From assembly GCA_937875715.1 (NCBI GenBank), contig CALEHZ010000326.1, positions 1 through 9,946 on the forward strand: a stretch of DNA of 9,946 nucleotides, given 5' to 3'. Shown here piece by piece: positions 8,557 to 9,946 of the stretch (positions are counted from its first letter, which is position 1; each line of letters opens with the position of its first letter). The notes beneath the pieces are model-generated. The model was not told the DNA's origin, made no database searches, and was given only the letters and a program-made list of their open reading frames with translations. A program made the translations under genes and the position numbers. The stretch comes from an uncultured Campylobacter sp. (GTDB lineage: Bacteria > Campylobacterota > Campylobacteria > Campylobacterales > Campylobacteraceae).

Positions 8557-9255
8557 ATGGGACAAAAAGTAAATCCAATAGGCCTAAGACTAGGCATAAA
8601 CAGAAACTGGGAATCTCGCTGGTTTCCTGCTAAGGCTACACTAGCTGAGGGTATTAGCGAAGATTATAAGATTAGAAAATTCTTAAAAGCAAAATTATAT
8701 TATGCTGGAATTTCACAAATCTTAGTTGAGCGCACAGCTAAGAAAATTCGCATTACTGTTGTAGCTGCTCGTCCAGGTGTAATCATCGGCAAAAAAGGTG
8801 GCGAAATTGACACTTTAAGAGCTGATGTAGTAAAACTAGTAAATAAAGATGTTGCTATCAATATCAAAGAAGAGCGCCGTGCTGGAAGCTCAGCACAACT
8901 TGCAGCTGAAAATGTAGCTATGCAATTAGAGCGCCGTGTGGCTTTCCGCCGTGCGATGAAAAAAGTAATCCAAGGCGCACAAAAAGCAGGTGCCAAAGGT
9001 ATTAAAATCTCAGTTGCTGGTCGTTTGGGTGGTGCTGAGATGGCAAGAACTGAGTGGTATTTAGAGGGTCGTGTTCCACTTCACACTTTAAGAGCTAAGA
9101 TTGATTATGGCTTTGCTGAGGCTCATACTACATACGGAAATATCGGTATTAAAGTATGGATCTTCAAAGGTGAAATTCTACAAAAAGGAATTCAAGCTGA
9201 AAAGAGTGAAGAAGCAGCTCCAAAAAGACCACGCCGCAGTAGAAGGAGCAAATAA
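8557..9255 (+). CDS. rpsC: 30S ribosomal protein S3
   Basis: S3 lies at the mRNA entry site and contributes to the ribosomal helicase activity. The 232-residue product contains MGQKVNPIGLRLG at the start, a KH domain with V-I-I-G-K-K-G-G (about residues 75-82) and the C-terminal AGRLGGAEMARTEWYLEGRV segment. Length agrees with Campylobacter S3. Codon use is still Campylobacter-like: eight Arg codons are CGC and several more are CGT, unlike the genes that follow. Its TAA stop shares one base with the rplP start (TAATG). It is the last gene in the window with clear Campylobacter affinity. Confidence 0.97.
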   Translation: MGQKVNPIGLRLGINRNWESRWFPAKATLAEGISEDYKIRKFLKAKLYYAGISQILVERTAKKIRITVVAARPGVIIGKKGGEIDTLRADVVKLVNKDVAINIKEERRAGSSAQLAAENVAMQLERRVAFRRAMKKVIQGAQKAGAKGIKISVAGRLGGAEMARTEWYLEGRVPLHTLRAKIDYGFAEAHTTYGNIGIKVWIFKGEILQKGIQAEKSEEAAPKRPRRSRRSK

Positions 9256-9695
9256 TGTTACAACCAAAAAGAACAAAATATAGAAAAATGCAAAAAGGTA
9301 GGAACAGAGGTAAAGCAACAAGAGGAAATGTTGTAAACGAAGGAGAATACGGATTACAAGCATTAGAAGCAGGATTAATTACAGCAAACCAAATAGAAGC
9401 AGCCAGAATTGCTATGACACGTTATATAAAAAGAGGTGGTAAAGTTTGGATTAAAATATTCCCAAACAAACCAATTAGTAAAAAACCAGCAGAAACTCGT
9501 ATGGGTAAAGGTAAAGGTGCTACTGAATATTGGGTAGCTGTTGTAAAACCAGGTAGAGTATTATTTGAACTTGCAGGAGTAACTGAAGAAATAGCAAGAG
9601 AAGCATTAAGACTTGCAGCACATAAACTACCTGTAAAAACAAAGTTCTTAACTAGAGAAATAAAGCAAGGTGGTGATGTTGATGAAGATAAATAA
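9255..9695 (+). CDS. rplP: 50S ribosomal protein L16 (non-Campylobacter type)
   Basis: L16 organises the A-site tRNA region of the 50S subunit. The 146-residue product has the family signatures KRTKYRKMQKGRNRG (about residues 5-19), QIEAARIAMTRYIKRGGKVW (about 46-65) and TRMGKGKGATEYWV. Campylobacter L16 usually starts MLMPKRTKYRK and ends in HKLPFKTKFVTRESENEIY; here the start is MLQPKRTKYRK and the end is HKLPVKTKFLTREIKQ plus an acidic tail. The middle GEYGLQALEA and the KVWIKIFP segment look like Bacillota/Fusobacteriota proteins. The ATG overlaps the rpsC stop by one base. It is intact as a gene, but its presence here indicates a chimeric join or replacement. Confidence 0.95.
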   Translation: MLQPKRTKYRKMQKGRNRGKATRGNVVNEGEYGLQALEAGLITANQIEAARIAMTRYIKRGGKVWIKIFPNKPISKKPAETRMGKGKGATEYWVAVVKPGRVLFELAGVTEEIAREALRLAAHKLPVKTKFLTREIKQGGDVDEDK

Positions 9696-9885
9696 AGTAA
9701 GAGAGATGTCTTCACCAGATTTAGAAAAGGAATTAGGAGAATTAAAATCAGAGCTATTTAAATTAAGATTTAGTTTAGCTACAAATGGATTAGATAATCC
9801 TATGAAAATAAAAGAAGTAAAAAAAGACATAGCTAGAATAAAAACAATATTAAGACAAAGAGAATTAGAAGAAGCAAAAAACTAA
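9682..9885 (+). CDS. rpmC: 50S ribosomal protein L29 (non-Campylobacter type)
   Basis: L29 sits beside L23 at the tunnel exit. The ATG at 9682 (MKINKVREMSS) is preferred to the in-frame GTG at 9670 because it matches the usual L29 N-terminus and has AAGGTGG upstream. The 67-residue product is a two-helix protein with ELFKLRFSLATNGLDNPMKI (about residues 25-44) and KKDIARIKTILRQRELE, a pattern typical of Bacillota and Fusobacteriota L29. The Campylobacter protein as I know it is about 61 residues, begins MKYTEI and has a quite different sequence. The gene overlaps the end of rplP by 14 nt in another frame. Confidence 0.92.
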   Translation: MKINKVREMSSPDLEKELGELKSELFKLRFSLATNGLDNPMKIKEVKKDIARIKTILRQRELEEAKN

Positions 9886-9886
9886 A

Positions 9887-9927
9887 AGGAAGTATTTCCT
9901 AAAATATGATAAGGAGGAAAACAAATA
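9887..9927 (+). promoter_or_regulatory. Spacer before rpsQ with a small hairpin and strong Shine-Dalgarno
   Basis: The 42-nt gap contains a 5-bp stem AGGAA/TTCCT with a 4-nt loop (9887-9900) and then AAGGAGG, about 10 nt before the rpsQ ATG. The perfect Shine-Dalgarno contrasts with the shorter AAGGA-type sites ahead of most upstream genes. The hairpin is too weak to be a terminator. Confidence 0.4.
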
Positions 9928-9946
9928 ATGGAAGAAAGAAATCTTC
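9928..9946 (+). CDS. rpsQ: 30S ribosomal protein S17, first residues only
   Basis: Only six codons (MEERNL) are inside the window. The call rests on position directly after rpmC, on the strong AAGGAGG upstream, and on the resemblance of the start to Bacillota-type S17 proteins (MERNLRK and similar). Campylobacter S17 starts MAFKREIQG, so this gene also belongs to the foreign block. Confidence 0.7.

Follow-up and report, generated by a model that had tools for sequence, protein, structure and literature searches.

A sharp switch from Campylobacter to clostridial sequence at the start of rplP, probably a cross-species chimera within an S10 operon

Introduction

Chimeric contigs between species are noticeable in simulated metagenomes, where sequence similarity has been suggested as their main cause (PMC3100316), and a review states that such contigs can come from shared k-mers (PMC7299287). 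In the simulations reported in the former, most chimeras joined sequences of the same genus or species when assembled with Celera and SSAKE, and of the same family or a deeper rank with Newbler and Velvet. There are also published cases of natural transfer for ribosomal protein genes: those of S14 and of L32/L33 are cited in a study that itself claims such a transfer of S10-operon genes for an archaeon from a mine-drainage community (PMC4490635).

The locus described here lies in a stretch of 9946 bases with 0 N, which was analysed as a whole and is referred to as the window. Its S10 operon is similar to the metagenome chimeric contigs of the two former sources (PMC3100316, PMC7299287) in that two organisms are represented and the join, within a conserved gene neighbourhood, probably falls in conserved sequence, but it is distinct from the chimeras described in PMC3100316, which mostly join closer relatives, in that different phyla are involved, a less usual case. 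With the acquired S14, L32 and L33 genes, as cited in PMC4490635, it shares the presence of foreign ribosomal protein genes in an otherwise native context; unlike in those cases, the foreign DNA shows no amelioration, most likely starts within a gene and continues up to the window end.

Results

The right half of the window is occupied by an S10 operon on the plus strand, with the gene order rpsJ, rplC, rplD, rplW, rplB, rpsS, rplV, rpsC, rplP, rpmC and the first codons of rpsQ. Family models confirmed rpsJ (5288–5599), rplV (8222–8554), rpsC (8557–9255), rplP (whole open reading frame 9255–9695) and rpmC (9682–9885), whereas the names of the remaining open reading frames, rplC (5611–6192), rplD (6189–6812), rplW (6814–7095), rplB (7097–7927) and rpsS (7929–8210), derive from matches to clostridial operons and from gene order. 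The window ends within rpsQ, and its odd length suggests that the contig ends there too.

The left half of the window carries a tight run of four genes, which comprises two adjacent open reading frames for HipA-like kinases (276–2373), each with a HipA_C domain (PF07804) and the first also matching the PADLOC candidate PDC-M03A, followed at 2382–3846 by a Fic/DOC protein with a DUF4172 N-terminus (SoFic-like) and, directly after it, a calcineurin-like phosphoesterase. Between this run and the S10 operon, a gene for Cu/Zn superoxide dismutase, sodC, is located on the minus strand (4439–4984).

The operon from rpsJ to the end of rpsC (5288–9255, plus strand) is Campylobacter-like, as the preliminary description had stated. 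The best full-length matches of rpsC are from Campylobacter, with 99% identity to one relative and 90% to the best named species, C. iguaniorum, and in the S3 tree, which took in 43 of the 120 listed S3 matches and 2 of 9 clostridial S3 proteins tried, the rpsC of the window lies inside the Campylobacter clade. This placement by homology search applies to rpsC; the other seven genes are assigned by their open reading frames, their order and codon use, and the low identity of their products to clostridial proteins. Median identity to the clostridial loci is 33–58% for the eight proteins from rpsJ to rpsC; rplW was matched in just one of the 19 loci, and several of the loci end short of the upstream genes.

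Codon use changes at the switch in the way previously described, with AGA taking the place of CGC for arginine and AGC being absent. AGA accounts for 37 of 98 arginine codons upstream and 15 of 18 downstream, CGC for 39 of 98 and 0 of 18, and AGC for 35 of 82 and 0 of 5 serine codons, while GC3 is 0.21–0.38 upstream and 0.12 downstream; rpmC was counted from its second codon on and rplP with its first three codons included. Stronger Shine-Dalgarno sequences had also been ascribed to the foreign part, which stands in one instance and not in the other. Of the two motifs, the strong AAGGAGG in front of rpsQ (9911–9917) alone is clostridial, whereas the GAAGGAG in front of rplP (9242–9248) sits on the Campylobacter side and was therefore rejected as a sign of foreign origin.

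Beyond the switch, three features on the plus strand are clostridial. The larger part of rplP (L16; 9264–9695) matches TIGR01164 with 202 bits, is 94% identical in amino acid sequence to the loci L001–L003, and groups with Clostridia in the tree. It is followed by rpmC (L29; 9682–9885), which matches TIGR00012 with an open reading frame from 9670 and shows 79–94% amino acid identity to 19 clostridial loci, against which L16 shows 85–94%. The start of rpsQ (S17; 9928–9946), cut by the window end and named from gene order, has its ATG at 9928 behind the AAGGAGG, and short clostridial matches are found there within 9898–9946. The beginning of rpmC thereby overlaps the end of rplP, stop codon included, by 14 bases (9682–9695) on the clostridial side.

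The foreign genes had been described as Bacillota- or Fusobacteriota-like, of which the first holds. The six best genome loci for L16 are metagenome-assembled genomes of uncultured Clostridia with 91–94% amino acid identity, and among the best 80 genome loci Clostridia predominate, alongside five cyanobacteria and a few other entries; since none of these bears a Fusobacteriota title, a fusobacterial origin was rejected. In the L16 tree, built from 19 of the 120 listed window-type proteins, 21 of the 120 listed Campylobacter-type proteins and 6 other L16, the window groups with the clostridial rows (support 86/74) and is split from Campylobacter with 100/100. The foreign origin of rplP thus holds with respect to both nearest matches and tree. 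An organism name is given for 1 of the 120 listed window-type L16 proteins, a Clostridia bacterium, and this list hence says little about hosts. Judged from the matches, the source of the foreign part is a gut bacterium of the class Clostridia, phylum Bacillota. As a separate observation, the sequence of the public L16 and S3 entries P0001, P0101 and P0121 (206–295 residues) repeats itself internally, with two slightly different copies in P0101; these entries may represent other misassemblies in ribosomal protein genes.

At the DNA level, 56 genomes were searched, of which 54 gave a match of any kind and 52 a match to rplP. Identity to the twelve nearest of the 52 is 90–94% from 9264 to about 9880–9892, and the remaining genomes range from 88% down to 69%. 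Given this identity to the nearest Clostridia and a codon use unlike that of the rest, the foreign part is unameliorated. Compared in blocks of 60 bases with the loci L002, L004 and L006, the window is 48–77% identical up to 9276 and 82–98% identical over 9277–9876, with the last two blocks varying between 50% and 100%. The taxonomic switch in the sequence is real and sharp. Because the median protein identity to the 19 clostridial loci jumps from 55% for rpsC to 90% for rplP and 85% for rpmC, the switch is not due to chance.

The position of the join was proposed to lie within a few bases of the TAATG shared by rpsC and rplP (9253–9257), which does not agree with the alignments, where clostridial identity sets in at 9264, after the first nine bases of rplP. 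By hand count, 43 of the 52 matches begin at 9264 and 6 begin one base earlier, at 9263; the remaining 3, which begin at 9256, are distant (69–76%), two reading MLVPKRTKFRK and one MMLAPKRTKFRK. The TAATG overlap is present in clostridial loci too, and relative to L002, L004 and L006 these five bases match, all six bases at 9258–9263 mismatch, and from 9264 on the match is unbroken as far as 9300, where the alignment shown ends. Immediately before 9264, 13 clostridial relatives read ATGCCAGTAATG. Among 86 distinct rplP start regions, 52 contain the exact 27-mer at 9264–9290 and 47 a 38-mer that begins at 9264; in 56 occurrences, duplicates included, the nine bases before the 27-mer are CCAGTAATG in 37, CCATTAATG in 18 and CCATTAATA in 1.

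The first three codons of rplP, ATG TTA CAA (9255–9263, plus strand), encode Met-Leu-Gln (MLQ), and the sequence that is certainly from Campylobacter most likely ends with them. An MLQ start was seen in 0 of the 86 distinct rplP start regions, which stem from 102 mostly clostridial loci, in 0 of the 120 listed window-type L16 proteins and in 5 of the 120 listed Campylobacter-type L16 proteins. The following 27 bases (9264–9290, plus strand) encode PKRTKYRKM, a peptide common to both groups, and therefore a join within these nine codons would not show. The five MLQ-type Campylobacter proteins continue with PKRTK[Y/F]RKMMKG and thus have Met at codon 13, whereas the window and the 13 clostridial loci shown have Gln. 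On this ground, the join is most likely inside rplP, between 9264 and 9290, rather than in the TAATG, and rplP is then likely to be a fusion of 3 to 12 Campylobacter codons with a clostridial remainder.

The Campylobacter continuation of the operon was also looked for elsewhere. Viral contigs scanned with rpsC for Campylobacter rplP DNA yielded 15 pattern stretches and no relative, a degenerate pattern for Campylobacter rplP gave 0 matches in viral contigs, and 48 plasmid records matched at 60–80% identity, with no Campylobacter among the 20 listed.

Discussion

We consider it highly probable (about 93%) that the contig is an artefact, namely a cross-species chimera of a Campylobacter S10 operon and its continuation from gut Clostridia. 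According to this explanation, the Campylobacter part, which starts with rpsJ and most likely includes the first codons of rplP, would have been joined to the stretch that follows in the corresponding clostridial operon, either by a path in the assembly graph or by template switching during library preparation, and thus outside a living cell. The short shared stretch at the start of L16, PKRTKYRKM, would let the path or the DNA copy cross in frame, and the native Campylobacter DNA would then resemble the clostridial DNA across 9264–9290. In the Campylobacter part of the operon, exact runs shared with the loci compared are up to 39 bases long in rplB for one locus and 20–26 there for others, and therefore matches able to confuse a graph of small k do occur between the two groups. 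For the 27 bases themselves, the probability of an identical run in native Campylobacter DNA is 0.02, calculated from the window's own Campylobacter codon frequencies; the shared run may therefore be shorter or imperfect. This value speaks against a perfect overlap of 27 bases, yet joins may be expected precisely where such runs happen to be long. The clostridial sequence runs to the window end with no return to Campylobacter before 9946. Further points count against a chimera: a join across phyla is less usual than one between closer relatives, the join is in frame with gene order kept, as it would be in a working replacement, and MLQ is a minority form among the listed Campylobacter-type proteins (5 of 120). 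The gene order is indeed preserved across the join, as originally noted, since in clostridial loci rplP stands between rpsC and rpmC, an order that is presumably the same in Campylobacter.

In a variant of the chimera, which we regard as unlikely, the clostridial donor's own rplP would itself start with Met-Leu-Gln and the join would lie at or before the TAATG. In its favour, a close relative, P0003 (95% identity), has the short start MLM, and starts of the form ML(V/L/S/M/I/A) are seen in some loci that are more distant; the MLQ counts given above, with none among the start regions or the listed window-type proteins, argue against this variant. The in-frame join and the conserved gene order would equally suit a natural and very recent replacement, in which clostridial DNA taken up by a Campylobacter entered the S10 operon through recombination at the conserved first part of rplP and gave a ribosome with clostridial L16, L29 and possibly further proteins. 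A motif at which an assembler can cross would be just as suitable for homologous recombination, and the reported transfers of S14 and L32/L33 genes provide a precedent. We nevertheless judge such a replacement to be very improbable. No Campylobacter title is present among the best 80 genome loci, the foreign DNA is unameliorated, and there is no return to Campylobacter sequence within the window. Moreover, the swapped proteins would need to function with the rRNA of another phylum.

The hybrid junction was seen in no other sequence among the best 120 window-type L16, the best 120 Campylobacter-type L16 and the best 80 genome loci; among the matches listed, no isolate carries a clostridial L16 in a Campylobacter context, and among the publications listed by literature searches none reports this Campylobacter/Clostridia S10 hybrid. 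The preference for a chimera over natural recombination, already voiced in the preliminary description, is thus maintained on the basis of a probable join in a shared motif, the lack of amelioration, the foreign sequence running to the window end, and the lack of a second instance among the matches listed.

Were the replacement natural, core ribosomal proteins would have been exchanged across phyla, which would be a striking case: a gut Campylobacter would use clostridial L16, L29 and S17, with the crossing in the first twelve codons of rplP, in a cross-phylum hybrid ribosome, a scenario to which we assign only a very small probability. The best explanation remains an artefact of an ordinary kind, with a join that can be narrowly localised, and not a genuine hybrid ribosome. 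As an artefact, the contig would mean either that clostridial L16 and L29 are filed under Campylobacter or that a Campylobacter S10 operon resides in a clostridial bin, which is an issue of curation that carries weight because phylogenies widely rely on ribosomal protein genes as markers.
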